This document shows, in pieces, positions 1,422-60,085 of a stretch of DNA of 64,000 bases (within the stretch, counting starts at the first letter, position 1; every line of letters starts with the position of its first letter). The notes below the pieces were generated by a model. The model searched no databases. It saw only the letters and a program-made list of their open reading frames with translations, and was not told the origin of the DNA. The position numbers and the translations under genes were made by a program. This DNA comes from a virus, in IMG/VR virus record IMGVR_UViG_3300020159_004070, positions 1-64,000 of that record, one strand, 5' to 3'.

Positions 1422-1463
1422 AATTATCTCACCAAAGGGTTGTATAATAACTAAAGTTTGCAA

Positions 1464-2054: not shown

Positions 2055-3336
2055 AAGACCAACAGCTTTGGTTTTTGGGTGGACTAAACCGCCGGGGAAG
2101 TATGAATATATTTCCGATCTTTTTTCCAAATCCGAAAGTTTGATGGGATGGGTAGATCTCATTTCTCTGGGCGATCAGGAGTTTTCTTCAGAGTTCCTTT
2201 TCGATTTAAAACAGGATTATAAAGCAGATCTAATCGTAGTTGTAGGCTCGAATCTTGTATCAAGATTGGCTAGAAGCAGTTTTTTTGATAGAATTTATCT
2301 TTTTTTAGAATCTCAGCCGTCAGATGTAGAATTGGCCAATCTGGTTTTGCGAAAAGTTGTTGAGAATCATTGTAACCCATATAAGCCTTTTTTTAGCGTT
2401 TTCACACCTGCGTATAAAACTGGTAAAAGGATTTTTCGGACTTACGATAGCTTAAAGGAGCAAACTTTCACCGACTGGGAATGGGTCGTCATAGACGATT
2501 CTCCTTCCGATCATACAGAGCTTTGGCAAAATTTGATTAGCATAAGTGAAAAAGATTTCAGAGTAAAGCCAGTTCGCATAAATCCAAATAGCGGCGGATC
2601 AGTAGGAAAGGTTAAAAAGAGAGCCTGTTCTCTTTCCAGTGGTAAATGGTTGGTTGAGTTGGATCACGACGATGAATTGATGAGGTCTTGTTTATCCGAC
2701 GTGTATGATGCCTCCAAGGCTTTCCCTGATGCTGGATTTATTTATAGCGACTGCTCGGAAATAGAGTCTGACGGCACTTTCCGTAAATATGATGATCGGG
2801 TTGATTGGGATTTTTATGGTGTACATGATAATTATTATAATTTCGGTTATTCTGGTCACACCTGGGTCCAGATCGACGGAAAAAAATATTTACAGCACCA
2901 CTCTCCTTCAATTAATCCAGTTACAATAAGATTTAATGTTTCGATGCCTAACCACGTTAGATGCTGGAATAAAAAGGTATATGATAGAATAGGGGGTCAT
3001 AGTGAAACCTTGCCCCTTGCGGACGATTTTGAGCTCGTTATAAGGACTTTTTTAGAGACTCGTATGGTTCATATCAGGAGGATGCTTTATCTGCAGCATA
3101 ACAATAAAAGAAGCACTGTAGACATGAATTCTTTTGAGATCAACAGGTTGTCTAGAATAATCAAAGACGTATATAATGAAAGAATACATCAGAGAATTAC
3201 CGATCTTGGTTATTTCGATTGGGAATGGGATAACTTTACAAATTCTTCTATCCACCAGGAAGCCTGGGTTCAGAGCGACTTAAGTTGCATAAGATTTGGT
3301 GAGGAGGAGCAGGTTCTAAATTACACTTACAATTAA
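2041..3336 (+). CDS. Family 2 glycosyltransferase (GT-A fold)
   Basis: The first ~110 residues form a poorly conserved N-terminal region. A classic GT2 domain then begins with FSVFTPAYKTG, EWVVIDDSPSD and a DxD-type metal/nucleotide-sugar site in ELDHDDEL (about residues 206-212), followed by Gly/Asp-rich acceptor-side sequence. It probably transfers a sugar from a nucleotide-diphosphate sugar. I chose ATG 2041 because it gives a 14-base overlap with the oxygenase gene; a longer reading from 1963 would lie deep inside that gene. It is the first of four consecutive glycosyltransferase-type genes behind the collagen-like fibre. Donor and acceptor are unknown. Confidence 0.85.
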   Translation: MLVVKRPTALVFGWTKPPGKYEYISDLFSKSESLMGWVDLISLGDQEFSSEFLFDLKQDYKADLIVVVGSNLVSRLARSSFFDRIYLFLESQPSDVELANLVLRKVVENHCNPYKPFFSVFTPAYKTGKRIFRTYDSLKEQTFTDWEWVVIDDSPSDHTELWQNLISISEKDFRVKPVRINPNSGGSVGKVKKRACSLSSGKWLVELDHDDELMRSCLSDVYDASKAFPDAGFIYSDCSEIESDGTFRKYDDRVDWDFYGVHDNYYNFGYSGHTWVQIDGKKYLQHHSPSINPVTIRFNVSMPNHVRCWNKKVYDRIGGHSETLPLADDFELVIRTFLETRMVHIRRMLYLQHNNKRSTVDMNSFEINRLSRIIKDVYNERIHQRITDLGYFDWEWDNFTNSSIHQEAWVQSDLSCIRFGEEEQVLNYTYN

Positions 3337-3340: not shown

Positions 3341-4513
3341 ATGAATAATAAGAACGTAAAAATTTGTATGAATTCAATGTTTGCCAACGAGGCACACGTT
3401 GTAGAAAGGATGCTCGAATCCTGTTATAAATATATTGATTATTGGGTTGTCCAAATCAATGGATCTACGGATGGAACCAAGGATATTGTGCAAAGGTTTT
3501 TTGACGAGAAAGGGATTCCAGGGTTTCTCTATGAGACTGAATGGAAGGGTTTTGGTCATAATAGGGATCACACACTTCAGGCCTGTCTGAATGCTGCTCA
3601 TGGTTGTGATTGGATATTGAGGATGGATGCAGACGAGCAACTAGTTGTTGATGATGACTTTGACTGGACGTTGCTGAACGATCTCTCGATACAAAGCTTC
3701 AATATTACAGCACAAGATCCGGGGGGAATCTACTTTAGAACATGGATGTGGAATGCAAAGTTACCCTGGTATTTTCAGCCCGATGTCAAACATGAGGTGA
3801 TTTCTCTCAAAGGTGCTGGTGTACATGACAACGAGTTCCAGATGGTAAATCTCCCAAGAACATTTAGGCACGTTATCACCAACGACGGAATGACGTGGTC
3901 GACAAATTTCAAATTTCTAAGAGATGCTCTCGAGCTAGAAGCTGATCAGGTTTGTTCTGGTAAAATCAGAGAAAATAATTACCATCTTTTTTACATCGGA
4001 AAAAGCTATGCCGACACATATGCAGACCCAAATTTTCCATTTGGAAAATCACACAGCGACGAATACGCTAGAAGAACCATTTATTACCTGGAACATTATG
4101 TCCAGAGGGGATATCCCAACTATCTAGAGCATACCCAACCCCCAAGATGGGATGAAATGGCCTATTTTTCTATAGTTCTTATAGGTAACGCACATAGATT
4201 CATGGGAAATATAGGCTTAGCCATAGAAAGGCTAGAAGAATCTGAATGGTACTGCCCGTTTAGAAACGAACATTTGGTATTCCTTGCTGAAATTTACGAG
4301 CAATTAGGTGAATATGAAAAGATGTTCGCTACTACAACGAGACTAGTAGAGCCGTCTAGAAAAAATCCATTTCCAGACTGGTATTTTTTGATTTACACGA
4401 ACGCATATCACGATACCGGTGAATATGTCTGGACCCTTCATGATAGGGCGAAAGGATATGTAGGCTTAAATGAGGTCAGCAAAACCTACGAATCTTTTCC
4501 TGGAATGGTTTGA
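3341..4513 (+). CDS. GT2-type glycosyltransferase with helical C-terminal region
   Basis: The N-terminal half is a GT-A glycosyltransferase: VKICMNSMFANEA, then VVQINGSTDGTKD and a DxD motif in LRMDADEQ (about residues 93-99). The C-terminal third (from about residue 260) consists of helices reminiscent of TPR repeats (IVLIGNAHRFMGNIGLAIER, LVFLAEIYEQLGEYEKM). This arrangement is typical of TPR-containing GT2 enzymes that modify proteins or cell-surface glycans. It begins 4 bases after the preceding glycosyltransferase gene and belongs to the same cluster. The specific sugar and acceptor cannot be read from sequence. Confidence 0.85.
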   Translation: MNNKNVKICMNSMFANEAHVVERMLESCYKYIDYWVVQINGSTDGTKDIVQRFFDEKGIPGFLYETEWKGFGHNRDHTLQACLNAAHGCDWILRMDADEQLVVDDDFDWTLLNDLSIQSFNITAQDPGGIYFRTWMWNAKLPWYFQPDVKHEVISLKGAGVHDNEFQMVNLPRTFRHVITNDGMTWSTNFKFLRDALELEADQVCSGKIRENNYHLFYIGKSYADTYADPNFPFGKSHSDEYARRTIYYLEHYVQRGYPNYLEHTQPPRWDEMAYFSIVLIGNAHRFMGNIGLAIERLEESEWYCPFRNEHLVFLAEIYEQLGEYEKMFATTTRLVEPSRKNPFPDWYFLIYTNAYHDTGEYVWTLHDRAKGYVGLNEVSKTYESFPGMV

Positions 4514-4555: not shown

Positions 4556-4831
4556 ATGTCAAACACAACAAGATTAACTGACGAAGAATTAAAAAACGTA
4601 TCTGAACTACGTAATGAAATATTCCAAAATGTGGAAATGCTTGGTAGGCTAAATATCCGTAAGCATTTCCTACAAAAGGATTTAGGTGAGGTTGAAATGG
4701 AAATAATCGCACATTTGCAAAAATGTGAGGAGTTGGATTCAAAGGAAAGAGACCTAACTAATTCTATTGTTGAAAAATATGGGGAAGGAAATCTTGATTT
4801 TCAAACGGGCGAATATACACCTAAAGCTTAG
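4556..4831 (+). CDS. Small coiled-coil hypothetical protein
   Basis: A 91-residue, highly charged, almost wholly helical protein. It begins with LTDEELKNVSELR and ends with a short KYGEGNLDFQTGEY motif. Small proteins of this style (helical body plus a KYG.G...TGE tail) recur in large myoviruses, but I know of no assigned function. It sits between two glycosyltransferase genes and 2 bases before the next one, so it is translated with the glycosylation cluster. Confidence 0.6.
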   Translation: MSNTTRLTDEELKNVSELRNEIFQNVEMLGRLNIRKHFLQKDLGEVEMEIIAHLQKCEELDSKERDLTNSIVEKYGEGNLDFQTGEYTPKA

Positions 4832-4833: not shown

Positions 4834-5886
4834 ATGAAAGAGATCGAAGCGCTCAGAAAGACAAAATATGAGCTGATAAGAACTATAAATTCCATTCAGA
4901 AAACATTGGATGATAAATCCGGAGGGAAACCGAGGATTCTTTTTGTTGCGCCTCATCTTTCTACTGGAGGTATGCCCCAGTATTTATACAAGAAAATTGA
5001 GTGCTTGTATGACCAAGCAGAGGTATTCTGCGTACAGTATAGTAATACTTCGGAGGCTTATGTAGTTCAGAGGAATAGAATTAAAAACAAAATTGGTGAT
5101 GGATTCTTTTGCTTAGGTGAAGATAAATTTGAACTACTGGATGTAATTGAAAAGGTTTGTCCAGATGTGATTCATTTCGATGATTTTGTTGAATTTTTTA
5201 TGGACGATAAACTCATACGTAAGATCTATCAAGAGGATAGACCTTATTTTATACTTGAGACTTGTCACAGTTCTAACATCTCGCCTAACGAAAAAGTTTA
5301 CTGTCCGGACAAGTTTGTTATGGTCAATCAATGGATGTGTAACAAGTTTTCTTCACTGGGTGTTCCTGTTGATATCTTAGAATACCCGATAGAAAATCTA
5401 AAAAGGCCGGAAAGAAATGAAGCATTGGGAGTTTTAGGACTGGATCCAAATGTCAAGCACGTAATCAATGTAGGCTTGTTCACGCCTGGAAAAAACCAGG
5501 CTGAGTTAATCGATTATGCAAGGCAACTTACTGAATATCCTGTCCAGTTTCATTTCATAGGAAATACAGCTCCTAATTTTCAGGATTATTGGGAGCCGCT
5601 GCTAGACAACCTGCCTAATAACTGTAAATTATGGGGAGAAAGGAACGACACTGATTTATTTTATCAGTCTGCTGATCTATTTGTTTTTACATCCAATTGG
5701 GAGCTAAATCCCATAGTTATCAAAGAAACTTTATCTTGGGGGCTTCCGATTTTAATGAGAAGGCTAGAGCCCTACTTGGATTCTTATGATAACAATCCTT
5801 TAGTTACTTACCTTGCACCTGGAGGTATGTTCGATGATAAAAATAGGAACATCAATATGATAAAAGACTTACTTAAACTGGAATGA
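4834..5886 (+). CDS. GT-B fold glycosyltransferase (GT4-like)
   Basis: After about 35 helical residues the protein has the Rossmann start of GT-B enzymes, PRILFVAPHLSTGGMPQYL, which matches the glycine-rich acceptor-domain loop of GT4 transferases. The C-terminal half has a second Rossmann domain opening with HVINVGLFTPGKNQ and the donor-site region LFVFTSNWELNPIVIKETLS, where the Glu-rich stretch corresponds to the EX7E motif of GT4 enzymes. It probably retains anomeric configuration. It is the third glycosyltransferase of the cluster and overlaps the next gene by 4 bases (ATGA). Confidence 0.85.
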   Translation: MKEIEALRKTKYELIRTINSIQKTLDDKSGGKPRILFVAPHLSTGGMPQYLYKKIECLYDQAEVFCVQYSNTSEAYVVQRNRIKNKIGDGFFCLGEDKFELLDVIEKVCPDVIHFDDFVEFFMDDKLIRKIYQEDRPYFILETCHSSNISPNEKVYCPDKFVMVNQWMCNKFSSLGVPVDILEYPIENLKRPERNEALGVLGLDPNVKHVINVGLFTPGKNQAELIDYARQLTEYPVQFHFIGNTAPNFQDYWEPLLDNLPNNCKLWGERNDTDLFYQSADLFVFTSNWELNPIVIKETLSWGLPILMRRLEPYLDSYDNNPLVTYLAPGGMFDDKNRNINMIKDLLKLE

Positions 5887-7061
5887 TAACAAAAGGTATA
5901 AACGTCTATAAAGGATTGACTAAATCAAAATTGGTAAGATTCAGGCATCCGATAAATTTTAAATTTTCGTTCAATTACGGACCCAGAGTAGATTGTACAG
6001 GTCCATCATCCGCCGGATCAGTAAGGGTTGTATTTAAGGACAAGAATTCGGAGGGTGAGATTTATTCTGGAGAAAGTAATCCAGGTCTTTTTACTACACT
6101 GTTCAGGAAATGGTATACCCCTTGGATAGTTGAGGCTTACCAGGATGACAACAAAATCTATGAATTCGATTTCGAAAAAAGCTTATATGGAAGCAAGGTT
6201 TGTATCTCTATAGATTCTTCATCACTCGGAGACACGCTTGCCTGGGTCCCAGTGGCTGAAGCTTTTCGACAAAAATTCAAATGTGACTTGTATTTGACCT
6301 CTTTTTGGAGTGAGTTGCTTTGTCAATTTTACCCGGACATCAGGTTTCAAGTACCTGGTTACAGAGAGCCCGCAACTCATGCCACTTTCGGCCTTGGGTG
6401 GTACGAAGAAACTGATAGGAACACCCATTTGAGAGACCCAAGAACAATTTCCCTGCAACAGGTAGCGGGTGACATTTTAGGAATTTCTTTGGATGGTGAC
6501 ATGAATTACAAAAACATTCCTGCTACTATATCCAAATCTAAGCCCGTGATTGATGGAAAGTATGTTTGTTTTGCTATGGATTCAACAGCAAATGCCAAAC
6601 ATTGGCATTTACTTAACGGATGGCAAAGATTGGCAGATGAGCTTGCGAAAAAAGGTTACAAGGTTGCAGTAATACAAAAACAGCAAACAAATTTGCAGGG
6701 AGTTTTAGATAAGACTGGTGACCACGATATCCTTGAAAGAGCCATTGACGTCTATCATTCTTCCTTTGTTGTTGGAATAGGATCTGGGTTGAGCTGGCTC
6801 GGCTGGGCATTAGGAAAACCTGTTGTTATGATTAGCGGATTTTCTGATCCAAAATGTGAATTTGCAACTAAGAATTATAGGGTTATCAATAAGAATGTTT
6901 GTAACGGGTGCTTTAATGATCCCTCTCACAAATTTGATCGAGGCGATTGGGATTGGTGTCCTAGACTTAAAGAAACGGAAAGAAGGTTTGAATGTACCAA
7001 GAGTATCTCCGTTGAAATGGTTCTTGAACACATAGAACTTCTAGAAAAAGAGCAACTATAA
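5883..7061 (+). CDS. Protein O-heptosyltransferase, AAH/TibC (BAHT) family
   Basis: The C-terminal half closely follows AAH and TibC, the enzymes that attach heptose from ADP-heptose to Ser residues of autotransporter adhesins. Matches include GSGLSWLGWALGKPVVMISG, the STANAKHW loop, and the four-Cys iron finger: CNGC, then WDWCP, then FECT, spaced as in TibC. The N-terminal ~100 residues are beta-rich, as in the family's beta domain. The donor domain begins near VCISIDSSSLGDTLAW. The strong match makes a protein acceptor likely; the collagen-like fibre six genes upstream, with Ser/Thr-rich modules, is the natural candidate. A matching heptose kinase is encoded at 32935. Acceptor and donor remain inference. 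Confidence 0.93.
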   Translation: MITKGINVYKGLTKSKLVRFRHPINFKFSFNYGPRVDCTGPSSAGSVRVVFKDKNSEGEIYSGESNPGLFTTLFRKWYTPWIVEAYQDDNKIYEFDFEKSLYGSKVCISIDSSSLGDTLAWVPVAEAFRQKFKCDLYLTSFWSELLCQFYPDIRFQVPGYREPATHATFGLGWYEETDRNTHLRDPRTISLQQVAGDILGISLDGDMNYKNIPATISKSKPVIDGKYVCFAMDSTANAKHWHLLNGWQRLADELAKKGYKVAVIQKQQTNLQGVLDKTGDHDILERAIDVYHSSFVVGIGSGLSWLGWALGKPVVMISGFSDPKCEFATKNYRVINKNVCNGCFNDPSHKFDRGDWDWCPRLKETERRFECTKSISVEMVLEHIELLEKEQL

Positions 7062-15707: not shown

Positions 15708-16262
15708 ATGGCTGGTTTACCACACTATCAAAATTCTCTAAGTGCAGTAAATAGGTTTGAACCCGTTTACCTCAACCAATTTGAGGTGAATGTTATCCCT
15801 CCTGGACCTGTTGCTGGAGGACCAATTCTGCTTGAGCATGTAATTTCTGTTGGTGGACTTGATGTAGATAAGAATCCTAGTTTTGTTGCTCAGAAATACA
15901 AATTCGCTAAGAGAAACTATGCTGGGGGTAAACCCGATACTACTACATTAGATTTGGCACTCAAGTTCAGTGTGAACTTGGATGATGCCAATTCGATGTA
16001 TGTTTTTAAAACTTTGCGTCAGTGGACGGATTTAATTTACAATCCTCTTACAGGTGCTCAGGGAATAAAAGCAGATTATGTTGGAACAATTATAATCTCG
16101 GTATTCAATAAGAACGGAGACGTATTCAGAAGAATTACCCTTAGAGATTGCTTCCCACTCAAAGCTATTGATCCGATGGAACTTGAATACACCAACGGTA
16201 CCACCTTATATGAAATTAACATGACATGGGCGGTAGATTATTGGGAAGATTTATTCTTATAA
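15708..16262 (+). CDS. Tail tube protein 1 (gp19-like)
   Basis: A 184-residue protein with the T4 gp19-type tube fold pattern: an N-terminal FEPVYLNQFEVNVIPP, a central YAGGKPDTTTLDLALKFSVN strand pair, DLIYNPLTGAQGIKADYVGT, and GDVFRRITLRDCFPLKAIDP. It lies directly after the sheath, as in T4, and is the inner tube through which DNA passes. A close paralogue starts 15 bases downstream. The pair differs mostly in the N-terminal half, so they may build different parts of the tube. No late promoter box is visible just ahead, so it is probably expressed from the sheath transcript. Confidence 0.9.
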   Translation: MAGLPHYQNSLSAVNRFEPVYLNQFEVNVIPPGPVAGGPILLEHVISVGGLDVDKNPSFVAQKYKFAKRNYAGGKPDTTTLDLALKFSVNLDDANSMYVFKTLRQWTDLIYNPLTGAQGIKADYVGTIIISVFNKNGDVFRRITLRDCFPLKAIDPMELEYTNGTTLYEINMTWAVDYWEDLFL

Positions 16263-16277: not shown

Positions 16278-16856
16278 ATGGCAGGTTTACCTCATTTCAA
16301 TAATTCAAAAGCAGCAAGAAACAACTACGAACCGGTTTTCTTAAACCAGTTTGAGGTTCTTATTACTCCACCGCCAGCAGTAACTTTGGCTAACACAACT
16401 TTCAACGGGGAGAATATTCTGACTCAACAAGTTAAGAACATTTCAGCATTGCAGGTCGATATTCAACCATCAGACGCTGTTACACAATATTACAAGTTTG
16501 CTGAAAGGAGATATGCAGGGGGAGAACCTTCTACATCGGACGTTCAGTTCACAATGAGTTTTGAGGTTAACCTTAATGAGGCCAATTCGATGGCTATCTA
16601 CAAGATTCTTAGACAATGGTCGGACTTAATTTACAATCCACTAACAGGTGCTATGGGATTAAAAAGAGATTATGTTGGTTCGATGGTGGTTTCTGTATTT
16701 AATAAGCAAGGTGATGTTTTCAGAAGAATCACCTTGAACAATTGTTTCTTGGTAGAAGCTATAAATGCTATGGACTTGTCCTATGACTCAGGAGACGCTC
16801 TTTATACAATAGATACGACCTGGAAGTCAGATTACTGGAGAGATCTATTCTTATAA
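16278..16856 (+). CDS. Tail tube protein 2 (gp19-like paralogue)
   Basis: A 192-residue paralogue of the preceding gene, sharing YEPVFLNQFEV, YAGGEP, LRQWSDLIYNPLTGAMG, VSVFNKQGDVFRRITL and the DYW.DLFL ending. It has a slightly longer loop near residues 30-50 (TTFNGENILTQQVK). It may be a second tube subunit, or a tail terminator or baseplate-proximal tube variant (T4 has gp54 and gp48 as tube-like baseplate proteins). Both copies look intact. Confidence 0.88.
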   Translation: MAGLPHFNNSKAARNNYEPVFLNQFEVLITPPPAVTLANTTFNGENILTQQVKNISALQVDIQPSDAVTQYYKFAERRYAGGEPSTSDVQFTMSFEVNLNEANSMAIYKILRQWSDLIYNPLTGAMGLKRDYVGSMVVSVFNKQGDVFRRITLNNCFLVEAINAMDLSYDSGDALYTIDTTWKSDYWRDLFL

Positions 16857-29655: not shown

Positions 29656-31299
29656 ATGGCTGGATTCAACGAAAACCAAAGCGGTAACCCCGTCTTTCAA
29701 AGAATTAGAGACTCAGTAAAGTCTTTAAGTAACTTTGGAATGCGATATGGTGACATGGTCATCAAAAACTCTCAAGCTATTGGTGCGATTGAGGCTGAAT
29801 TCATGAAGAAGCAAACCATCGATGATGAGAATTTGCTTTATTCTTTAGGTAGACAAGATACTACAACTAGACAATTCATAGGATATTTCGATAAGGATTA
29901 TCCGGGCAAGAGGGACTACCTCAGGAAGTTTGCACTGAACCCTGAAATAGAGTATATTCTTGACACAGTTTGTGACGAATCAATTACGTATGATTCATAC
30001 AACTTCTTTGCTTATCCAGCTTTTTTAAATCTTACCGATGTCAAAGACAAGGTAAAGGATCGAATAAACGAAAATTACAAAAAGCTTTATGAAATGTTTG
30101 GCTTTACTGATGACGTCAGCGGCTGGCAATATTTCAAGCAGCTTTTGGTAGATGGATTCATAGCATTTGAGATCGTTTATGATGATAAAGGAAAAAACAT
30201 CATTGGTTTCAAAGAACTAGATGCTACCACTTTGATGCCCTCGGTGGAAAAACAACCGGATGGTACTTATCTAAGTGTTTGGTGGCAATATCCTAAAGAT
30301 ATAAATAAGAAAAGGATGCTTTATGACTCCCAAGTCATCTACATTTCTTATGCAAAAGGTAACACTGTCTCCAGGGTCAGTTATACAGAACGCCTGATCA
30401 GACCTTACAACATCCTAAGAATCATTGAATACACCAGGGTTATTTGGTCAGTAATGAATGCTTCTTTTAGAATGAAGATGACTGTTCCGATTGGATCTAG
30501 ATCACCACAAAAGGCAATGCAAACCTTAGGTGAGCTTATGAGCATCTATAAGGAAGATATTAGATTCAATGATGAAAGTGGGGAACTTACAGTTGATGGA
30601 AGGCCAAAGATCCAATTTTACAAGAACTACCTTATGCCTTCTGGTGTCAACGGTACGCCAACTATAGAGCCATTGAATACTGCTGGTCCTAACCTTAATG
30701 ATCCTGCACCACTTGCATATTTCTTCGATAAGCTCGTACAAGAATCTAAAATTCCTTTTTCTAGATTTCAAGGTCCTGATGGTGGTTCAATTGGTAATTA
30801 TTCGAACGGTGCTGAAGGATTGGACAAGGAAGAAATAAGATTTGCTAAGTTTATAAACAGGTTAAGGTCAATATTCCAGGATATTTTGGTTAAACCTCTT
30901 TGGATCCAAACAGTAAAAGATTTTCCTGAATTAGAAAAGGACTACTTATTTAAGAGCCAACTGGGCCTAAATTTCGTTTCGGATAACCCATTCAGGATGA
31001 ATCAGGAGATTGAAACGATGACTGCTAAGAAAACCCAAATCGAATCAATGTACGCTCTGACTGATGATACCGGAGCACCATATTTCTCTTTAGCTTATCT
31101 TATTGAAAATTACCTTGGAATGACTCAGGATGACATAAAGGCTAATAAAGAAGCCAGGAAGAAAAGAAGTGAAGAGGAGAAGAAGAAAGCTAAAGAAGCT
31201 GCCGCTGCAGCTCCAGCCGCCGAAGCTCCAGCTGAGGAGGCACCAGCTGAAGCTCCAGCTGAGGAAGCACCTGCTGAAACCCCTCCACCAACAGAATAA
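29656..31299 (+). CDS. Portal protein 1 (gp20-like)
   Basis: A 547-residue portal protein of the T4 gp20 type. Characteristic segments include YGDMVIKNSQAIGAIEAEF, LDTVCDESITYD, WQYFKQLLVDGFIAFEIVYD, the stem/channel region QVIYISYAKGNTVSRVSYTE and RLRSIFQDILVKPL. In the family it forms a 12-subunit ring at the packaging vertex, binding terminase and then the neck. The tail is an Ala/Pro/Glu-rich low-complexity stretch (about residues 510-547). A second full-length portal gene starts 8 bases downstream. Confidence 0.93.
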   Translation: MAGFNENQSGNPVFQRIRDSVKSLSNFGMRYGDMVIKNSQAIGAIEAEFMKKQTIDDENLLYSLGRQDTTTRQFIGYFDKDYPGKRDYLRKFALNPEIEYILDTVCDESITYDSYNFFAYPAFLNLTDVKDKVKDRINENYKKLYEMFGFTDDVSGWQYFKQLLVDGFIAFEIVYDDKGKNIIGFKELDATTLMPSVEKQPDGTYLSVWWQYPKDINKKRMLYDSQVIYISYAKGNTVSRVSYTERLIRPYNILRIIEYTRVIWSVMNASFRMKMTVPIGSRSPQKAMQTLGELMSIYKEDIRFNDESGELTVDGRPKIQFYKNYLMPSGVNGTPTIEPLNTAGPNLNDPAPLAYFFDKLVQESKIPFSRFQGPDGGSIGNYSNGAEGLDKEEIRFAKFINRLRSIFQDILVKPLWIQTVKDFPELEKDYLFKSQLGLNFVSDNPFRMNQEIETMTAKKTQIESMYALTDDTGAPYFSLAYLIENYLGMTQDDIKANKEARKKRSEEEKKKAKEAAAAAPAAEAPAEEAPAEAPAEEAPAETPPPTE

Positions 31300-31307: not shown

Positions 31308-32924
31308 ATGGCAGGATTTTTAGATTACGTTCAGGAAAGATCTTTTATGGGTAACCTGTATAAGAACCTTTCTCGTATAGGAAGGTTTGGTATGGAGTAC
31401 CAAGATATGGTTATCAGAAACTCTCAAGCTATCGGTGCAACGGAGTCAAATTTCATTGGAGAACATGGAACCGGATTCACTGAAAATGACGCATTTTACT
31501 GGACACTAGGTTATCAGGATACTAAGGTTAGAAAATACATTGCCTATTTCGATAAAGATTATGTCGGGAAAAGAGACTTCCTTCGAAAGTTTTCACTCAA
31601 CGGAGAGATAGATTTTATTTTAGATACTCTTTCTGATGACGCAATAAATTACGATGACAAAAATTTCTTCGGTTATCCCGCGCTTTCAAATATTGATCTC
31701 AAACCAGAAGTTGTAGAAAAGCTTGATGAGACTTTCCGAAAATTGTACATGCTGTTTGGATTCCAGCAAAGTGTTCTTGCCTGGCAATACTTCAGGCAGT
31801 TTTTAATTGATGGTTTCCTTGCTTTTGAAATTGTTTATGCAACCGACGGAAAACAGATCGTGGGTTTCAAAGAATTAGATCCGACATCCCTCCAACCTGC
31901 AACGGAACCTCAGCCTAATGGTGAGTTTGAACAAATTTGGATTCAGTACCCACAGGATAACAAAATGACGAGGAGGTTAAAAAGTGAGCAGGTGATCTAT
32001 ATTTCTTACGCTAAGGGAAATACTATCTCTAGAGTAAGCTACGTTGAAAGGTTGATAAGATCATACAATATCCTGAGAATCATGGAAAACACCCGTGTAA
32101 TCTGGAATGTGATGAATGCCTCCTATCGTCTAAAGTTTGTAATACCTGTTGGATCTCAGTCCCAACAAAAAGCAATGCAAACCCTGGGGCAGCTGATGTC
32201 GATATACAAGGAAGAAATTGAATTAAATGATACATCTGGGGAATTAACAGTAAATGGTAGACCCAAGGTTCAGTTTTACAAAAATTATCTTTTCCCAGAA
32301 AAAGACGGCCAATCTCCACAAATTGAAACTTTGGATCCTAATGGACCAGATTTCAATGTCATGGAAAATGTCGTTTATTTTTACAATAAATTAAAGCTGG
32401 ACTCTAAGATCCCTTATGCAAGATTTGCATTCAGAGGTGGAACTCCGGCAAACTACCAAATCAGTATTGATCAGTTAGAAAGAGACGAGATAAGATTTGA
32501 AAAATTTCTGACCCGTCTTCGTTCTATTTTCCAAGAGATTATGGTAAAACCCTTGTACATTCAAATGTGTTTGGATTTTCCTGAACTATCGAAAGACAAT
32601 GCTTTTAAGTCCAACTTAGGTTTAGATTTTGTCAGAGAGAACCTATTTGAAGAAATGATCCAGTTACAGAACTACACAAAGAGAACCGAGTTTATTAATT
32701 CTCTAGGGGAAATGAAACAAAAGATAGGTGAGGAGGAAGAAGCCTATTTCGATAAAGACTTTCTCATTTCTAGGTACATGGGCTTAACTATGGACGAGAT
32801 CAAGAAAAACAAGCTCTACAAGAAAAAAGAGGAGGAAGAAGCAGAGAAAAGAGCTAAGGAGAAAGAGAAAGAAGGTGGAGGCGAAGGTGAAGAAGGAGCT
32901 GCAACGCCTGAATTTACTCTTTAA
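31308..32924 (+). CDS. Portal protein 2 (gp20-like paralogue)
   Basis: 538 residues, paralogous to portal 1 over the whole length: YQDMVIRNSQAIGATESNF, LDTLSDDAINYDD, WQYFRQFLIDGFLAFEIVY, QVIYISYAKGNTISRVSYVE, RLRSIFQEIMVKPLY. No broken domain is visible, so both copies may be functional. Its tail differs: a charged Lys/Glu coiled stretch and Gly-Glu run instead of the Ala/Pro tail. A tandem pair of intact portals raises the possibility of a mixed ring, or two portal types used for different heads or stages. Confidence 0.92.
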   Translation: MAGFLDYVQERSFMGNLYKNLSRIGRFGMEYQDMVIRNSQAIGATESNFIGEHGTGFTENDAFYWTLGYQDTKVRKYIAYFDKDYVGKRDFLRKFSLNGEIDFILDTLSDDAINYDDKNFFGYPALSNIDLKPEVVEKLDETFRKLYMLFGFQQSVLAWQYFRQFLIDGFLAFEIVYATDGKQIVGFKELDPTSLQPATEPQPNGEFEQIWIQYPQDNKMTRRLKSEQVIYISYAKGNTISRVSYVERLIRSYNILRIMENTRVIWNVMNASYRLKFVIPVGSQSQQKAMQTLGQLMSIYKEEIELNDTSGELTVNGRPKVQFYKNYLFPEKDGQSPQIETLDPNGPDFNVMENVVYFYNKLKLDSKIPYARFAFRGGTPANYQISIDQLERDEIRFEKFLTRLRSIFQEIMVKPLYIQMCLDFPELSKDNAFKSNLGLDFVRENLFEEMIQLQNYTKRTEFINSLGEMKQKIGEEEEAYFDKDFLISRYMGLTMDEIKKNKLYKKKEEEEAEKRAKEKEKEGGGEGEEGAATPEFTL

Positions 32925-32934: not shown

Positions 32935-33942
32935 ATGAAAATAAAAAATATCGTTTCTTCGAAGAAGATTTTAGTTATCGGGGACGTTATATTAGATCAC
33001 TATATCCACGGTAGGGTATTCAGAGTTTCTCCAGAAGCTCCAGTTCCAGTAGTTTTAAAGAGTAATTCCGTTTATTGTCTTGGCGGAGCTGCAAACGTTG
33101 CTCAAAATGTTACCTCTTTTGGTTCTGAGTGTTACTTGCTTGGAATAACAGGTTTAGATCAATCTGGTGAAATAGTGAAAGAACTGTGCAAACAGAAAGG
33201 GGTGATAACTATGTTGGTTGAAGACCCAGCCAGAGTAACTACTGAAAAGACCAGAATTGTTGGCAACAATCACCAAATAGCAAGGATTGATTCGGAAAGC
33301 ACTGAACCAATCTCGGAACACATCCAAAATTTATTGTTGCAAGAATTTGAAAGAGTAATCTCTATAATTGACGGAGTCATAATACAGGATTATGGGAAAG
33401 GATTGTTGACAGAAATCATACTGCAAGAAATAATTAGCAGATGTAAGAAATACGAAAAGGTCGTATTGGTTGACCCTAAAGAAAAGGATTTTAATCGATA
33501 TAGTGGAGCTGATTGGATAAAACCTAATCTTTCTGAATTGAAAAATGCTGCTGAAATACAGGCCCACAAATCTCTTTCAGTCGATGAAATAATTAAAGTG
33601 GGTGACCAAATCAGAAAGAATTTCAGCTTTGGTAATATTTTAGTTACTATGTCCGAAAATGGAATGCTTGCTAAAGGTGAAAATTTTTCAGAAACAGTCG
33701 ACGGTTATAAGATTGATGTAACAGATGTCTCTGGAGCGGGAGATACAGTTAGTGCTGTTTTCATGCTTATGCACCTTTCTGGGGTTTGCATAAAGGACAC
33801 ATTGGATATTTCTAATCTCGCTGGATCTATGGTTTGTAGGATTTCTGGCGCAGTTCCAATAAACACAAATGACTTATTCGTGGAAGCATTGAACTTGGGA
33901 ATGTGTTTAGAGAATTCTTTTTTCGAGAATTTACTGGTTTAA
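32935..33942 (+). CDS. hldE: D-glycero-beta-D-manno-heptose-7-phosphate kinase (HldE kinase domain)
   Basis: A PfkB-family kinase matching the N-terminal domain of HldE/RfaE: VIGDVILDHYIHG, RVSPEAPVPVV, LGGAANVAQN, TEKTRIVGNNHQIARID and the catalytic anion-hole motif DVSGAGDTVSAVF. It would phosphorylate heptose-7-phosphate at C1 to give heptose-1,7-bisphosphate, the second step of ADP-heptose synthesis. It stops at 335 residues, so the C-terminal adenylyltransferase domain of bifunctional HldE is absent. It lies between the portal and ligase genes, away from the heptosyltransferase at 5883. The conserved RVSPEAPVPVV points to the heptose kinase branch rather than ribokinase. Confidence 0.88.
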   Translation: MKIKNIVSSKKILVIGDVILDHYIHGRVFRVSPEAPVPVVLKSNSVYCLGGAANVAQNVTSFGSECYLLGITGLDQSGEIVKELCKQKGVITMLVEDPARVTTEKTRIVGNNHQIARIDSESTEPISEHIQNLLLQEFERVISIIDGVIIQDYGKGLLTEIILQEIISRCKKYEKVVLVDPKEKDFNRYSGADWIKPNLSELKNAAEIQAHKSLSVDEIIKVGDQIRKNFSFGNILVTMSENGMLAKGENFSETVDGYKIDVTDVSGAGDTVSAVFMLMHLSGVCIKDTLDISNLAGSMVCRISGAVPINTNDLFVEALNLGMCLENSFFENLLV

Positions 33943-33991: not shown

Positions 33992-35332
33992 ATGCTAAGA
34001 GAGATAGAAATTTTTTACCAGATTGAAGGACTCACCGGAAACGGATCGCAGAAAGAAAAGCAGAGACTAATTTCTGAAAATTTGTCGGATCGAATGATTT
34101 ATGCTTTGGATATATGTTTCAATCCTTTTGTGACTACCAAATTACATAAGTTAGAGCTTGATTTTTCTTTGCCTACAAGATCTTATTCAGGTAATGAGGG
34201 ATTGTTCTGGAAAAACTTTGTTGATGTCGTAGAGGAGCTTAAATCAGCTCCAGCGGCTAATGATAACCTAAGGTCCAGAGCAGAATGGCTTCTCTATTTC
34301 AATTTTTCTGAAGATGTATCGTTAGATCAAAATCTAAGAAAGACCCTAATGAAAATTCTCACAAAGAGAATGAATATTGGGATAGGAGCAAAGCTTATTA
34401 ATAAGGCGGTCGGTAAGGAATTGATTCCTGACCCTTCTTTAATGCTTGCTACTGATGATCAGAAGGAGATTGAAAAATGGGAAAAGATCTATTGCGAAGA
34501 AAAGTATGACGGCGTCCGAGTGATTGCCGTAAAAAACGCGGATGGCGGATTTTCATTTTTCACTAGAGCTTTCAATGAACTAGATTCTTCAAAGTTACAA
34601 AATATCAGTTCTGAACTCCAGAAGATAACAAACGGAATGTCCGGCATTTTCATAGATGGGGAATTGACGGATCTTAATAGAAAATCAGTTTCAGGAAAAG
34701 TAACACAAATATTAAAAGGGACTGCCCCCGATGACATTGATAAAAACTTTCTTTTCAATGTATTTGACATTGATCTATATGAGGTCTTGAGAAAGGGAAA
34801 GGGCAAAACCTTGTATAGCGAAAGGAGAACAACCCTAGAGCTTTTACTTTCCCAACTTGGTGAAAATTCCTCTGTCAAACTAGGAACCATGTGGGAGGTT
34901 GATTCGATGGAAGAAATTCTTGGAATTTATAAACGGATCGTATCTGAAGGTGGTGAAGGGGTTATTTGCAAGAATGACCACTTTTACGAATGTAAGAGAA
35001 GTAAAAGTTGGGTTAAGCTCAAAGAGGTTAATGACTGTGATCTAGAAATAACAGGATGGTATCCCGGTGAGGGAAAAAGGGAAGGATTTATAGGTGGACT
35101 AATTTGTACTGATCTTTCTAAAACTTTAAATGTAAAAATTGGAGCCGGTTTTACGGACCACGATCTACGGGAACTCAGCACAGATCCCGATTCATTGGTT
35201 GGTAAGATCGTTGCAGTCCAATACAATGTACCTATCACGGATAAGCACGATAATAGGAGTCTTTTTTTACCCAGGTTTATCGAAGTTCGTAGCGATAAGA
35301 ATGTGGCTGATGACCTGTCTAATTTGTTCTAA
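33992..35332 (+). CDS. ATP-dependent DNA ligase (gp30-like)
   Basis: A 446-residue nucleotidyltransferase ligase. The adenylation site is KYDGVRVI with Lys171; later motifs include FTRAFNELD (motif III region), FIDGELTDL, GGEGVICKN (motif IV) and KSWVKLKE (motif V). A C-terminal OB-fold follows (LNVKIGAGFTDHDLREL). It seals nicks during replication, recombination and repair. The length is similar to T4 gp30 (487). A host-type promoter lies just upstream, and clamp-loader and nuclease genes follow, forming a replication unit. Confidence 0.93.
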   Translation: MLREIEIFYQIEGLTGNGSQKEKQRLISENLSDRMIYALDICFNPFVTTKLHKLELDFSLPTRSYSGNEGLFWKNFVDVVEELKSAPAANDNLRSRAEWLLYFNFSEDVSLDQNLRKTLMKILTKRMNIGIGAKLINKAVGKELIPDPSLMLATDDQKEIEKWEKIYCEEKYDGVRVIAVKNADGGFSFFTRAFNELDSSKLQNISSELQKITNGMSGIFIDGELTDLNRKSVSGKVTQILKGTAPDDIDKNFLFNVFDIDLYEVLRKGKGKTLYSERRTTLELLLSQLGENSSVKLGTMWEVDSMEEILGIYKRIVSEGGEGVICKNDHFYECKRSKSWVKLKEVNDCDLEITGWYPGEGKREGFIGGLICTDLSKTLNVKIGAGFTDHDLRELSTDPDSLVGKIVAVQYNVPITDKHDNRSLFLPRFIEVRSDKNVADDLSNLF

Positions 35333-39480: not shown

Positions 39481-39514
39481 AAACTTTATTGCTTTTCTTT
39501 TCTAAAATATCTTG

Positions 39515-40396
39515 ATGATATTAAGTAGAAAATTAAACCGTTTGGGATCTGTCAGTAAGGATTTATTCTCGAAATCCGCTCTTCAGGCATCTTCCTTTTT
39601 GGATCTCGTTTCTTCGAAGATTTACGAAAACCAAAATTCAGGTCTTAATATTTCTTGTTTTGAAATTCCCCAAAATTTTATCGTTCCAAACTTTGACCTC
39701 GTAGAAGATGAATCTGAGGATGCAAGAAAAATTTGGGAAATCTATAGGTTACTGAAAACCAACAACCACAGAGTTGTATTTTTTTTACCATCTCAATTTT
39801 TTCTAGGAAGCCAATTGGAGGATGCAGTGGCATCAAGTAAACTCATAGTTAATGATTTAGCTTGTTTTCTAGATCAGATTGGAGTTTCTGGTCCTTCTAT
39901 TGTTTTACGAATAGGAAGTGCATATGGTGCTAGAAAAGTAACTATGCAAAGATTTTGTGATAATGCAGAATCCTTGGGCAACAAAGTGCTATCGAAGATA
40001 GCTGTTTGTAATGACGAAAAACCTTCGTTGTTTTCAGTTACAGATTTATTGAGCGGGGTTTACTATACAAGCAAAATTCCTATTGTCTTTAGGTTATTGC
40101 CACATCAATTCAATAACGGAGGTCTTTCGATCAGGGAGGCTTTATTTCTTTCGGTCTCTACTTGGCCTGTTGGTCAAACTCCTTTATTCATTCACTCAGA
40201 GTCCTCTGAGGTGGATCAAAACGGGATAGCTTTATCACCTTCACCTTCAAATTATTTAAAACACCGGATACCAACTTTTGGATTGGATATAGACATTGTT
40301 ATTGATTCCCCGATTGAATCAAGGGCGTGTCTTAAATATCTTTCTGAATTGATCTCTTTGAAACCAATGGTTATCAATAAAATAGAGAAGAAATAA
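39515..40396 (+). CDS. UV-damage endonuclease-like protein (UvdE family)
   Basis: A TIM-barrel-type protein with features of UvdE: an early SCFEIPQNFIVPNFD region, VVFFLPSQFFLG, SIVLRIGSAYGARKVTMQRF (the GxxxG..K helix after a beta strand), then IPIVFRLLPHQFNNGGLS containing a metal-binding His, and PLFIHSESSE as the final His strand. Such enzymes nick 5' of UV lesions. I chose ATG 39515; a TTG one codon earlier is possible. It is followed by Fpg/Nei-type glycosylase and exonuclease genes, forming a repair group. Residue-level match is partial, so confidence is moderate. Confidence 0.6.
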   Translation: MILSRKLNRLGSVSKDLFSKSALQASSFLDLVSSKIYENQNSGLNISCFEIPQNFIVPNFDLVEDESEDARKIWEIYRLLKTNNHRVVFFLPSQFFLGSQLEDAVASSKLIVNDLACFLDQIGVSGPSIVLRIGSAYGARKVTMQRFCDNAESLGNKVLSKIAVCNDEKPSLFSVTDLLSGVYYTSKIPIVFRLLPHQFNNGGLSIREALFLSVSTWPVGQTPLFIHSESSEVDQNGIALSPSPSNYLKHRIPTFGLDIDIVIDSPIESRACLKYLSELISLKPMVINKIEKK

Positions 40397-54224: not shown

Positions 54225-55124
54225 GTGGGTCTTAAGAATAGCAAAATTTACTTCTTAACGTTTTGCACAGAGGGAGAACCTTTTGATCTTGGAAAGAACT
54301 TAAGCTCAAATGCCAGGAAGATAAAATTGCTTCTGACCCCCTTTTTTGATGATGTTATAATTTACACACCAAGGACACTGAAAGAGTGTGAAGGATCGGA
54401 AAATTTTTGTAATTTCCATGAGGGAGGATTTAGTCTTAATCCAGGATTAAACACTATCGGATGCGGTGATTTTAAATCGTTCATTATTGATAAAACGCTC
54501 TCAGAAATAGACGAGGGTGATCTCTTGATGTATCATGATTGCAATTTTTTGAAATATCCGCAGTACTGGCAAACAGATTGGGAAAAAATCAAAGAAACGT
54601 GCGAGTTGTTATTAGGGTCAAACAAATCCGATTTTTTTGCACCTTTTGAATCATTGATGGATGGATTCCCGAATATTGTCAGGACGCACGGAAAAAGGTT
54701 TACTACAGATAGGATAATCCTTGATCCAATCGAGTCAGAATTGGTGTCTTGGTGTTATGAAATTGCATCGAGCAGAATCATTATAAAGAACACTCAAGAT
54801 TCCAGAGATTTCTTCTCTGAGTACTTAGCATTGTGCAAAAGAAAAGACCTCTTAAAATTATACCCAGACCCAAATCCATACCCAGAATTTACACACAGTT
54901 GTCCAGAACAACATGTATTGAATTGTTTGATTTATAAATGGATATTGGATGGGAAATTAGATCCATCTTTTCCCCGATATATGTTTTATAATAGAAAATT
55001 CAGAATAGATGATAATTTGATGCTTTATGAAAATTATACACTAACGAAATATATGGCTTCGAAGTTCATAAAAGGTATGGTTGAAAAAATCAACTGTCTA
55101 GGTCAAAACAATAAAGAAAATTAA
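54225..55124 (+). CDS. Glycosyltransferase-like protein A (tandem paralogue)
   Basis: A 299-residue protein from GTG 54225. The paralogue downstream shares the start (KIYFLTFCTEGEPFD vs KIYFVTFCSQGEPFD), NPGLNTIGCGDFKSFI, YHDCNFLKYPQYWQTDWE, SWCYEIASSRIIIKNT and PYPEFTHSCPEQHVLNCLIY. The YxDCN acidic motif after a beta strand, and the overall pattern, resemble small GT-A glycosyltransferases (capsular galactosyltransferase-like), but the match is weak. No DxD motif is certain. It opens a second metabolic/glycosylation island. Confidence 0.5.
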   Translation: MGLKNSKIYFLTFCTEGEPFDLGKNLSSNARKIKLLLTPFFDDVIIYTPRTLKECEGSENFCNFHEGGFSLNPGLNTIGCGDFKSFIIDKTLSEIDEGDLLMYHDCNFLKYPQYWQTDWEKIKETCELLLGSNKSDFFAPFESLMDGFPNIVRTHGKRFTTDRIILDPIESELVSWCYEIASSRIIIKNTQDSRDFFSEYLALCKRKDLLKLYPDPNPYPEFTHSCPEQHVLNCLIYKWILDGKLDPSFPRYMFYNRKFRIDDNLMLYENYTLTKYMASKFIKGMVEKINCLGQNNKEN

Positions 55125-55128: not shown

Positions 55129-56058
55129 TTGGAAAAAGTTAAAATCTACTTTGTTACCTTTTGTAGTCAGGGAGAACCATTTGACGGAGGTAAAAATCTG
55201 AGACAAAACTCAAGCAACATTAAAACCGTTCTTTCTGCCTTTTTTGATGATGTGTTTGTGTTTACCCCGCAGTCGCTCAAACTTTGTGATGGAGCTGATG
55301 ATTTTTGTAACCCACAGGGGGAAGATTTCCCACTGAACCCCGGAATGAGCTCAATAGGATGTGGGGACTTCAAGGCGTTTATCGTAGACAAGATTCTTTC
55401 AGAAATAGAAGAGGGGTCAATTCTTTTTTATAATGATTGCAATTTTTCGAAATACCCTCAATATTGGCAAACTGATTGGGAAAATCTGCAACAAGTGTTT
55501 GAATTCCTGCTGGACGAAAATTTTTCGGATTTTTATTTCCCTTTTGAATCACCTCTAGAGGATAAGCTAAATCTCGTCAGATATCACGGAAAGAGATATA
55601 CTACTGATTACATAATTCGTAATCATGAAGAGAGTGAGATAATTTCACGTTGTTATGAAATAGCATCCAGTAGAATGATAATTAGAAACACTGCAAGGTC
55701 TAGAGAATTCTTTTCTGAATTCAAGAATCTTTGTAGAAAAAGTGATCTGCTATCTAAATATCCAAATCCAAATCCATATCCAGAATACACACACAGCACA
55801 ATAGATCAACACGTCTTGAACTGTTTGGTGTATAAACACATATTGGACGGAAAACTTCATTCGGGATTTCCTAAATTTATGCTGAAGAACAGAGTTTTAA
55901 GGATTGACGAGAATTTAACTATCCTTAAAAATGAAGAATTGTCGAAATATATGGACACGAAATCCATAAAGAGTATGATTGAAAATATTCAAAACAAGAG
56001 AAATGATAACGATTTTCGAGGGTATCAGGAATTCAGGGAAGACTTTTTTATCACATAA
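55129..56058 (+). CDS. Glycosyltransferase-like protein B (tandem paralogue)
   Basis: 309 residues from TTG 55129, 4 bases after copy A. It aligns with A over the full length, including FYNDCNFSKYPQYWQTDWEN and SRCYEIASSRMIIRNT. Both copies begin with non-ATG codons, unusual in this window. The 3' end overlaps the P-loop kinase gene by 56 bases. Function is as uncertain as for A; the duplication suggests different acceptors or dosage. Confidence 0.5.
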   Translation: MEKVKIYFVTFCSQGEPFDGGKNLRQNSSNIKTVLSAFFDDVFVFTPQSLKLCDGADDFCNPQGEDFPLNPGMSSIGCGDFKAFIVDKILSEIEEGSILFYNDCNFSKYPQYWQTDWENLQQVFEFLLDENFSDFYFPFESPLEDKLNLVRYHGKRYTTDYIIRNHEESEIISRCYEIASSRMIIRNTARSREFFSEFKNLCRKSDLLSKYPNPNPYPEYTHSTIDQHVLNCLVYKHILDGKLHSGFPKFMLKNRVLRIDENLTILKNEELSKYMDTKSIKSMIENIQNKRNDNDFRGYQEFREDFFIT

Positions 56059-56544: not shown

Positions 56545-57942
56545 ATGTGTGGAATAATTATTACAAAGAATTCTGACTTAACCACGTTAGATTTAATTAA
56601 ACATAGAGGAATTGAGAAATCCTTAATCAGTAGGGATGGTGTTGTTCTCTGTCATCATAGGTTGCCAATACAAACTGTAGATGGCGATGATTGGAATCAG
56701 CCTATAGAAATATCGGATGGAATATTTCTAATGTTTAACGGTGAGATTTTCAATTATGACCAGGAAAAGTTTGGATCTGATGTAGAATATTTAACAAATA
56801 CTTTTAGTAGGTACAAAGGAGGAAGTTTTGAAATGTTTTGTGGACTATTTGTTCCCGTCATTCAAACTTGGGATGGATTCTGGGCTATCGTTTTGTACGA
56901 TTCTAACTCGGGTGAATTAATTTCATTTACAGACCCACTTGGAAAGAAATGTCTTTATTACAACAGTATGGGAGAGGTTTGCTCGGAAATCAAAGGCCTG
57001 GTTTCTACAAATTCCCCAATCGACGAAACGTATATAAGCACAGTAAGGAAGTTTGGATACAACACAGACGAAAGAACTCCATATTCTGACATCAAAAGGA
57101 TTCTGCCCAACAACATTTATTTTTTCAACATTGAAAGCATAGAGGTAGTCCAGGTTTATAAAACATATTACAAAGGTTTTGACCACCCTATTTCTGAGCT
57201 GGTTGGAAAAAGCTATGATGACCACTTGGAGTGGCTTTGGCAGAAGATGTTCGAGTCTGTAAAAAATAGATTGGTTTCTAAAGACTATCCAATTTCACTT
57301 CTAATCTCCGGTGGGTTGGATTCCTCAATCATTGCATCTATTCTCAACGAACTTGAAGCTGATGTCAGGTGGTTTAGTATAGAAAATGGGGAAAATGAGT
57401 ATGTTGAAATTTTATACAAATTCTTAGGTAAGGAAGTTTCATTCTTGGACTACCAGATGGATGATTCCAAAATTTCTGAAATCTATAAAAAATGGAATGA
57501 AACCCCGGTTGATCTAGGTTCTGTAGTTCCACAATTTCATTTGTTCGAAGCAGTTAAGAACTTTGGTGGATATCGAATAGTTTTATCCGGCGATGGGGCT
57601 GATGAACTTTTTGGTGGTTATAAAAGAATTCACGAATACGATTCACAAAAATCTGACATATTTGATGAGCTGTCCTTTTATCATTTGCCAAGATTGGACA
57701 AAATGTCCATGGCTCACACTTTAGAACTAAGAAGCCCATTTCTCCATTTGGATATTGTAAGATTTGCTCTACATCTCCCCCTTGAATGGAGAATGGATAA
57801 AAAAATTCTGAAAGACACGTTCTCACCTTTACTCCCTGACGAAATAGTGAATCGAAAAAAAGCACCATTGAAGAACCCAGAAATAAAGGAGGATAAGATA
57901 GCTTACCGATATAAAGCTGTTGACCTGTTTTTGAGAGATTAA
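56545..57942 (+). CDS. asnB: Glutamine-hydrolysing asparagine synthetase (AsnB-like)
   Basis: Begins MCGIIITK, giving the catalytic Cys of class II glutamine amidotransferases. FNGEIFNYDQ is the glutamine-site loop. The synthetase half shows SLLISGGLDSSIIASIL, the ATP pyrophosphatase P-loop, then VLSGDGADELFGGYKR and HTLELRSPFL. It could make asparagine from aspartate, or amidate a sugar/glycan, since AsnB relatives occur in polysaccharide clusters. Length is 465, shorter at the C-terminus than E. coli AsnB (554). It sits among glycosyltransferase-like genes. Confidence 0.88.
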   Translation: MCGIIITKNSDLTTLDLIKHRGIEKSLISRDGVVLCHHRLPIQTVDGDDWNQPIEISDGIFLMFNGEIFNYDQEKFGSDVEYLTNTFSRYKGGSFEMFCGLFVPVIQTWDGFWAIVLYDSNSGELISFTDPLGKKCLYYNSMGEVCSEIKGLVSTNSPIDETYISTVRKFGYNTDERTPYSDIKRILPNNIYFFNIESIEVVQVYKTYYKGFDHPISELVGKSYDDHLEWLWQKMFESVKNRLVSKDYPISLLISGGLDSSIIASILNELEADVRWFSIENGENEYVEILYKFLGKEVSFLDYQMDDSKISEIYKKWNETPVDLGSVVPQFHLFEAVKNFGGYRIVLSGDGADELFGGYKRIHEYDSQKSDIFDELSFYHLPRLDKMSMAHTLELRSPFLHLDIVRFALHLPLEWRMDKKILKDTFSPLLPDEIVNRKKAPLKNPEIKEDKIAYRYKAVDLFLRD

Positions 57943-59203: not shown

Positions 59204-60085
59204 ATGAATAAAGAATTAACAATTGGTCAGACTCCACTTATTCCATTACGAATCGATGGATTCACAATTTGGGGAAAAGCAGAATTCATGAATCCGTCGG
59301 GTTCTGTTAAAGATAGGCCAATCTATAACATTTTAAAATCTGGTCTTGCTGAAGGAACACTAAGCAAAGGAGACACAGTGGTAGAAGCCACCAGTGGAAA
59401 TGCTGGGATTTCTTTTGCTATGTTTTGTTCTCAAATGGGACTGAAATGCGTTATCGTCATGCCTTCCAATATGAGTGAGGAAAGAAAGAAGATGCTAAAA
59501 TTTTATGGAGCTGACCTAATTGAAGTCGGACCCGGAGATTTCGACGGAGCAATACAATTAAGAAACGAACTTGCAGAAAAGAACGGATGGTTTAACGGAA
59601 ATCAGTTTAACAATCCAAGGAACGTGGAGGCACATTACAACGGGACTGGTGTTGAATTGATGTACCAATGTAAGCATTTCGATATTTTTCCTTCAGCATT
59701 TGTTTTAGGAACCGGAACCGGTGGAACGTTAATGGGTGCTGGAAGATTGCTGAGCGAGCAATTTCCAGATATTGAAATTGTAGCAATCGAGCCTTCAGAA
59801 TCTCCCGTAATGAGCGGGGGTCAGCCTGGATTGCACGGAATTCAAGGAATCGGTGACGGGTCAAAATTTATGGTAGAACTTTCTTTTCTCGATCATATCA
59901 TAACAGTCTCTACAATAGAAGCTACCGAAATGTCCCTAAGATTGGCAAAGGAGTATGGAATATTTGTTGGGATAAGCGCTGGTGCTAACGTTCTAGCATC
60001 CCTTAGGTATTGTCAAAAATTCGGAAAGAATGACGTCATAACAATCCTCTGTGATCGGGGGGAGAGGTATTTAAGTTGCATGTAA
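59204..60085 (+). CDS. cysK: Cysteine synthase (O-acetylserine sulfhydrylase family)
   Basis: A 293-residue PLP enzyme of the beta family. The PLP lysine is Lys36 in MNPSGSVKDRP; the substrate loop is EATSGNAGISFA; the phosphate-binding loop is LGTGTGGTLMG; VGISAGANVLAS follows near the C-terminus. All catalytic motifs look intact. It would make cysteine from O-acetylserine (or a related donor) and sulfide. As a phage-encoded metabolic gene it may support cysteine supply late in infection. A terminator lies upstream; no clear promoter box is visible in the 28 bases before the start. Confidence 0.9.
   Translation: MNKELTIGQTPLIPLRIDGFTIWGKAEFMNPSGSVKDRPIYNILKSGLAEGTLSKGDTVVEATSGNAGISFAMFCSQMGLKCVIVMPSNMSEERKKMLKFYGADLIEVGPGDFDGAIQLRNELAEKNGWFNGNQFNNPRNVEAHYNGTGVELMYQCKHFDIFPSAFVLGTGTGGTLMGAGRLLSEQFPDIEIVAIEPSESPVMSGGQPGLHGIQGIGDGSKFMVELSFLDHIITVSTIEATEMSLRLAKEYGIFVGISAGANVLASLRYCQKFGKNDVITILCDRGERYLSCM

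Follow-up and report, generated by a model that had tools for sequence, protein, structure and literature searches.

An HldA-family kinase in a conserved portal-ligase slot and a predicted protein O-heptosyltransferase beside a collagen-like fibre gene in an environmental phage

We analysed a 64,000-nucleotide stretch of viral DNA (hereafter the window; positions 1 to 64,000 of the IMG/VR virus record IMGVR_UViG_3300020159_004070, 65,464 bases in total) and found that it encodes a stand-alone kinase of the HldA/RfaE-domain-I family as well as a protein that belongs to the TibC/AAH-type protein O-heptosyltransferases (BAHT). The explanation that we favour, with slightly better than even confidence, is that phage fibres are O-heptosylated, that the kinase boosts the supply of ADP-heptose for this and that the remaining steps come from the host. 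The two genes are:

32935-33942, plus strand: single-domain HldA-type (PfkB/RfaE domain I) kinase, 335 amino acids (aa); assigned by profiles, structure match, conserved columns and model
5883-7061, plus strand: TibC/AAH-type protein O-heptosyltransferase (BAHT), 392 aa; assigned by TIGR04414, alignment with TibC and model

The kinase open reading frame (ORF) starts with ATG and comprises 335 codons, and its bounds are exact. The TIGR02198 profile (RfaE domain I) matches residues 7-315 with an E-value of 1.1e-90, the protein passes PF00294 (PfkB; 101.6 bits versus a gathering score of 25.8), and the GAGD catalytic motif is kept (D264-V-S-G-A-G-D270). Among solved structures, B. cenocepacia HldA (4e84, E 2.9e-47) is the best match. 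An earlier note, written from the letters of the window without database searches, had proposed a match to the HldE kinase domain, and the TIGR02198 and 4e84 matches bear this out. The predicted fold (predicted local distance difference test score, pLDDT, 92.7) is closest to HldA chains (TMq 0.80-0.86): in the search with this model seven HldA chains rank first (E ~1e-33 to 1e-36), with ribokinases after them (E ~1e-20).

A search with two motif patterns supplied the bacterial homologues, of which the 80 best were retained; 49 alignment columns are at least 93% conserved among 81 bacterial sequences. The phage kinase keeps all 49 of these columns, and all 35 of those that lie outside the fetching motifs, which we report separately because columns inside the motifs are conserved by construction. 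For the same 49 columns, nine full-length non-HldA PfkB paralogues keep 16-25, and three HldA proteins keep 49 out of 49 (these 12 controls are what is left of 23 rows after 11 truncated rows of 10-185 aa were excluded afterwards). We also looked for what the earlier note had named as a possible refutation, closest homologues that are kinases of other sugars, and found none at the level of sequence. Membership of the HldA/RfaE-domain-I family is thus confirmed for the predicted protein.

The gene is under strong purifying selection (dN/dS, the ratio of nonsynonymous to synonymous rates, of 0.07-0.19 by the Nei-Gojobori method; 16 pairs with dS <1.5), and it occupies a fixed place in the genome, with these neighbours:

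29656-31299, plus strand: portal protein, copy 1, on the left flank of the kinase slot
31308-32924, plus strand: portal protein, copy 2, directly upstream of the kinase
33992-35332, plus strand: DNA ligase (named from sequence), directly downstream of the kinase

The order second portal gene, kinase, DNA ligase is found in all 16 viral records that were collected with the window protein (L002-L017), and since these 16 other records have the same gene in the same place at such dN/dS values, its presence is not a matter of chance. In a wider scan the same order persists down to 38% kinase identity, on contigs of up to 373 kilobases (kb). Among 80 records found via the second portal protein, the slot holds a kinase of the 335-aa type in 36, a 256-aa kinase in eight (L245-L252) and nothing in 33, and is uncovered in three. 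The 256-aa kinase is itself RfaE-domain-I-like; it is 28% identical to the window kinase, and its nearest relatives are cyanophage kinases (42% identity to that of S-SM2). This replacement in place by a distant member of the same kinase family suggests that the function of the slot has been retained.

The two portal genes themselves are tandem full-length paralogues, paired in nearly all relatives whose contigs reach that far. The portal protein of T4-like phages is normally the product of a single gene, and a ring built from both proteins, or a second portal with a specialised role, would be unusual. Downstream of the ligase lies a conserved block with a UvdE-type UV endonuclease gene (39512-40396; PF03851, over the cut-off).

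The earlier note had pointed to a kinase without its adenylyltransferase domain. The protein does stop at 335 aa, but the absence is not a loss: an adenylyltransferase motif is found in the same ORF in five of the 80 nearest bacterial homologues and is absent from the other 75, single-domain ORFs that span 309-380 aa (one is cut by the end of its contig). We therefore reject a truncated HldE, as the single-domain form is the usual one among the nearest relatives. In the tree the phage kinases form a clade (17 rows, support 100/99) within a supported group that also holds single-domain kinases of Bacteroidota; the phage group adjoins Ignavibacteria-type kinases, and its exact sister, one long-branched row, is unsure. 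A separate ORF with an HxGH motif is present in the fetched flank of 10 of the 75 single-domain homologues, and the four of these ORFs that were scanned all score over the HldC cut-off. In the Ignavibacteria-type relatives L034, L037 and L059, a gene over the HldC cut-off adjoins the kinase gene, and in the outgroup L043 the genes for the kinase, GmhA, HldC and a GT9 protein follow one another in one row. With several of the surrounding bacterial relatives in such GmhA/HldC contexts, heptose 7-phosphate is the likeliest substrate of the phage kinase, judging from homology and gene context.

The heptosyltransferase that the earlier note had placed at 5883 in the same genome is real, and it proves to be of the protein-modifying TibC type. 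Its product passes TIGR04414 (autotransporter strand-loop-strand O-heptosyltransferase) with 275.6 bits against a cut-off of 200, and profiles of lipopolysaccharide (LPS) heptosyltransferases score far lower on it. It aligns with TibC (4rap) over residues 23-379 (E 3e-54), and its model (pLDDT 84.8) gives a template modelling (TM) score of ~0.82 to TibC chains versus 0.44-0.50 to WaaC. An LPS heptosyltransferase was accordingly rejected for this gene, the TibC family fitting far better in profiles and alignment. Residues D110, T226, K230, R286 and W305 of TibC correspond in the alignment to D117, T235, K239, R286 and W305 of the phage protein, and the iron-finger cysteines 339, 342, 358 and 370 to 340, 343, 359 and 371 (for the catalytic, ADP-heptose-binding and iron-finger roles of these residues in TibC, and for ADP-heptose as the donor sugar of TibC-type enzymes, see excerpts of PMC4358343). 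An alignment of 15 phage homologues shows no variation at D117, T235, K239, W305 or any of the four cysteines; R286 does vary. The product of the gene thus belongs to BAHT, a family that heptosylates serines, and is predicted to have this activity. No autotransporter acceptor was recognised beside the gene; its neighbours are a collagen-like protein and glycosyltransferases:

1-1182, plus strand: collagen-like fibre protein (GAQ and GSSGTSG triplets; triplet runs at 55-1023), open at the start of the record, candidate acceptor
1458-2054, plus strand: DUF6445 protein, cassette member
1963-3336, plus strand: family-2 glycosyltransferase, cassette member
3341-4513, plus strand: family-2 glycosyltransferase, cassette member
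4556-4831, plus strand: small protein, cassette member
4834-5886, plus strand: group-1 (GT4-like) glycosyltransferase, overlapping the BAHT start by 4 bases

The collagen-like gene beside this cassette is Ser-rich, so that the earlier idea of virion decoration gains a concrete predicted enzyme and a candidate acceptor. The order of the glycosyltransferase genes is conserved in five relatives (L109 and L123-L126); a collagen-like ORF is visible in L123-L125 and none in L126 and L109, which start at about the DUF6445 gene. The association of BAHT with collagen-like genes extends well beyond these relatives. Runs with at least eight G-X-Y triplets are found in 71 out of 100 phage BAHT loci, versus none of 78 portal loci and none of 80 kinase loci (these 158 control loci are phage regions, not matched fibre regions). 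The 100 BAHT loci contain near-duplicates and four second copies (L123-L126); when 93 BAHT proteins are clustered, collagen-like runs accompany 33 of the 48 clusters formed at 90% identity and nine of the 12 formed at 60%. The triplets are Ser-rich (30-57% of residues) in eight of the nine collagen-positive 60% clusters, the one exception having 7%.

In some phages BAHT is joined to, or preceded by, sequence of another transferase. For example, the 735-kb phage LR756501 has a 1140-aa ORF with GT4 similarity before the BAHT ORF and a collagen-like ORF on the other side, and G039 and G059 have the BAHT match inside a 966-aa frame, which in G039 opens with a GT4-like stretch. The Microcystis phage Mel-JY01 (PP395634.1, 4750-8430; L131) has a long gene annotated as 'methyltransferase FkbM' whose C-terminal end is a BAHT and which lies close to an extended GSSGTSG collagen-like run.

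The remaining steps of ADP-heptose synthesis, which the earlier note had reported as missing from the window, are not found in the full record either: searches of its 65,464 bases gave no match to rfaE domain II (TIGR02199, the HldE C-terminal domain) or CTP_transf_like (PF01467), and no GmhA-type SIS_2 protein, GmhB or NAD-epimerase. A complete phage-encoded ADP-heptose pathway was likewise not found in the window record and 16 close relatives. Elsewhere rfaE domain II is present in 17 of 50 further records (46 kinase-bearing viral contigs and four named phage records), and in the portal-slot lineage only in G059, below the cut-off. A host among the environmental Bacteroidota is likely: Prevotella, Tenacibaculum and Chryseobacterium phages are among the portal relatives, and most of the nearest cellular kinases come from Bacteroidota. 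The further idea of the earlier note, that ADP-heptose as an immune-signalling molecule might have consequences past virion decoration, finds no support here, and we give it no weight.

BAHT was found in five of the 17 first-set kinase records, i.e. all five that reach its place, and over the cut-off in 10 of 50 kinase records (48 viral contigs, two of which come from the window's own set, and two phage genomes). In the whole phage collection a BAHT match is present in four out of 50,697 records. In the portal lineage BAHT is encoded by 13 of 34 records (the full kinase accompanies it in 10 and the short kinase in two, and the slot is empty in one; most of the other records are short). It is present in most long relatives of the window record, and both long short-kinase records that reach its place keep it. 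There is also a second phage lineage (L150-L155 and L173) in which a stand-alone HldA-type kinase gene directly follows tail-like genes; three of these tail-neighbourhood kinase records (L151, L153 and L154) have BAHT as well. LR756501 also encodes a stand-alone HldA-type kinase. Taken over the portal slot, the tail-gene lineage and LR756501, the co-occurrence of kinase and BAHT amounts to few independent events.

Under the explanation that we favour, the kinase would raise flux into ADP-heptose during infection, with isomerase, phosphatase and adenylyltransferase drawn from the host. The BAHT would then move heptose from ADP-heptose onto serines of a phage protein, most probably those of the Ser-rich collagen-like fibre whose gene lies just upstream; the glycan may be lengthened further by the glycosyltransferases encoded nearby. 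If many fibre serines were modified, an ADP-heptose pool sized for the host could be drained, a shortage that a kinase acting right after isomerisation, at the first phosphorylation, might relieve. More tentatively, and with confidence a little short of even, we propose a widespread phage system, in which serines of GSSGTSG collagen-like fibres are O-heptosylated by TibC-type enzymes with partner glycosyltransferases, the two being fused in certain phages, and some lineages boost the donor sugar by an HldA kinase of their own.

Several observations weigh against this explanation. The kinase score of 304 bits lies under the curated TIGR02198 cut-off of 345, as do those of three Bacteroidota kinases of the nearest type (318-327 bits), so that heptose 7-phosphate is a putative substrate for the phage subclade. 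In the phage BAHT the TibC stereo-determinant P300 is replaced by Gly. BAHT was found in six of 80 SSGTSG-type repeat loci, among the matches listed and within the fetched stretch; together with the 71 out of 100 above, this means that BAHT keeps to collagen-like fibre regions and that most such fibres have no BAHT nearby. The kinase and BAHT genes of the window are 27 kb apart, and a joint locus is seen in none of 80 kinase loci and none of 93 BAHT loci; no kinase-BAHT gene neighbourhood was found in the fetched loci. No kinase is seen in 16 of 17 BAHT records, or in six of the seven of these that are at least 59 kb long, the IMG/VR records being fragments. G087, a relative with an empty slot, retains BAHT, and G037 has the kinase and ~62 kb of upstream sequence without BAHT. 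We reject an obligatory pairing, given G037, G087 and the common occurrence of BAHT without the kinase; as the two often occur apart, the kinase is an optional helper of BAHT and not a required partner.

This separation would also fit a heptose kinase that serves host surface glycans (LPS or capsule), e.g. to keep or alter a receptor, and has no link with the BAHT cassette, as would the related kinases of cyanophages, which adjoin isomerase, nucleotidyltransferase and epimerase genes. We think this unlikely, as there is no LPS-type heptosyltransferase (the single GT9 match of the record is of the TibC type) and no other LPS sugar genes were recognised near the kinase, which has portal and ligase genes as neighbours. 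Those surroundings, with genes named from sequence as DNA ligase, clamp loader-like, guanylate kinase-like and RNase H-like, could instead point to a kinase of another sugar phosphate (e.g. a pentose 5-phosphate such as arabinose 5-phosphate) in DNA hypermodification or metabolism; T4-like phages have arabinosyl-hydroxymethylcytosine, for which a kinase route is suggested in excerpts of PMC6024577, and the score under the TIGR02198 cut-off is consistent with a different substrate. The retention of all HldA-conserved columns, however, and the bracketing of the phage clade by bacterial kinases in GmhA/HldC operons argue for heptose, and we consider another sugar phosphate quite unlikely. An SIS_2 isomerase is absent from 18 records, in a search that did not include the plain SIS family or hydroxymethylases, so that DNA arabinosylation by a kinase route is not supported by this partial search. 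It is improbable that the kinase gene is a moron or hitch-hiker that serves host metabolism in general and has no particular role in the virion: the empty slot in 33 of the 80 portal relatives would agree with that, but the strong purifying selection and the refilling of the slot with a distant member of the kinase family would not.

Widespread fibre heptosylation by such enzymes, if real, would supply the purpose that viral heptose synthesis has so far lacked; the viral use of the sugar is left open in excerpts of two short papers about the viral heptose enzymes discovered in 2024 (PMC11461863 and PMC11573728). Many environmental phages would then carry heptose as a modification of their virion fibres, the collagen-like fibres of phages would count as glycoproteins, and the acceptors of TibC-type enzymes would include a new class. 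A kinase, a dedicated transferase and a candidate acceptor in one genome turn the question of viral heptose into a mass-spectrometry experiment. Viral heptose-synthesis enzymes, single-domain HldA and bacterial TibC-type enzymes are already known; in the literature searched (with partial journal coverage and supplements excluded) we found neither a TibC-type heptosyltransferase from a phage nor heptosylated phage fibres described.

Other genes of the window include adjoining paralogues for tail-tube-like proteins (15708-16262 and 16278-16856), tandem paralogues of ~300 aa (54225-55124 and 55129-56058; the first is matched by neither Pfam nor NCBIfam), an asparagine synthase-like gene (56545-57942; below the NCBIfam cut-off) and a cysteine synthase-like (PALP) gene (59204-60085). 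Rfam and tRNA scans across the window gave no matches.

Among known systems, the phage kinase is most like B. cenocepacia HldA (4e84) and the bacterial single-domain HldA/RfaE1 proteins, with which it shares fold, length, the 49 columns and architecture; it differs from them in its portal-ligase slot, in its score below the TIGR02198 cut-off and in a short C-terminal tail conserved in most close relatives. The kinase domain of enterobacterial HldE is homologous to it, but the adenylyltransferase domain of HldE is absent from both the phage protein and the record. Cyanophage short carbohydrate kinases (P-SSM2, S-SM2 and S-CAM3) belong to the same superfamily, and a kinase of the S-SM2 type fills the same slot in eight relatives; they are, however, ~250 aa long and 25-28% identical to the window kinase, and that of P-SSM2, unlike the window kinase, adjoins nucleotidyltransferase and isomerase genes. 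Compared with bacterial BAHT (TibC/AAH), the phage protein reaches the family cut-off and keeps the catalytic, ADP-heptose-binding and iron-finger residues, but has Gly for P300 and is encoded beside a collagen-like fibre gene and glycosyltransferases, without an autotransporter. Tang et al. (2024, Science) reported that viruses encode ADP-heptose synthesis enzymes, with an unclear viral role (as related in excerpts of PMC11461863 and PMC11573728); in contrast to the enzymes described there, the kinase alone is found here, together with a dedicated transferase and a candidate acceptor.
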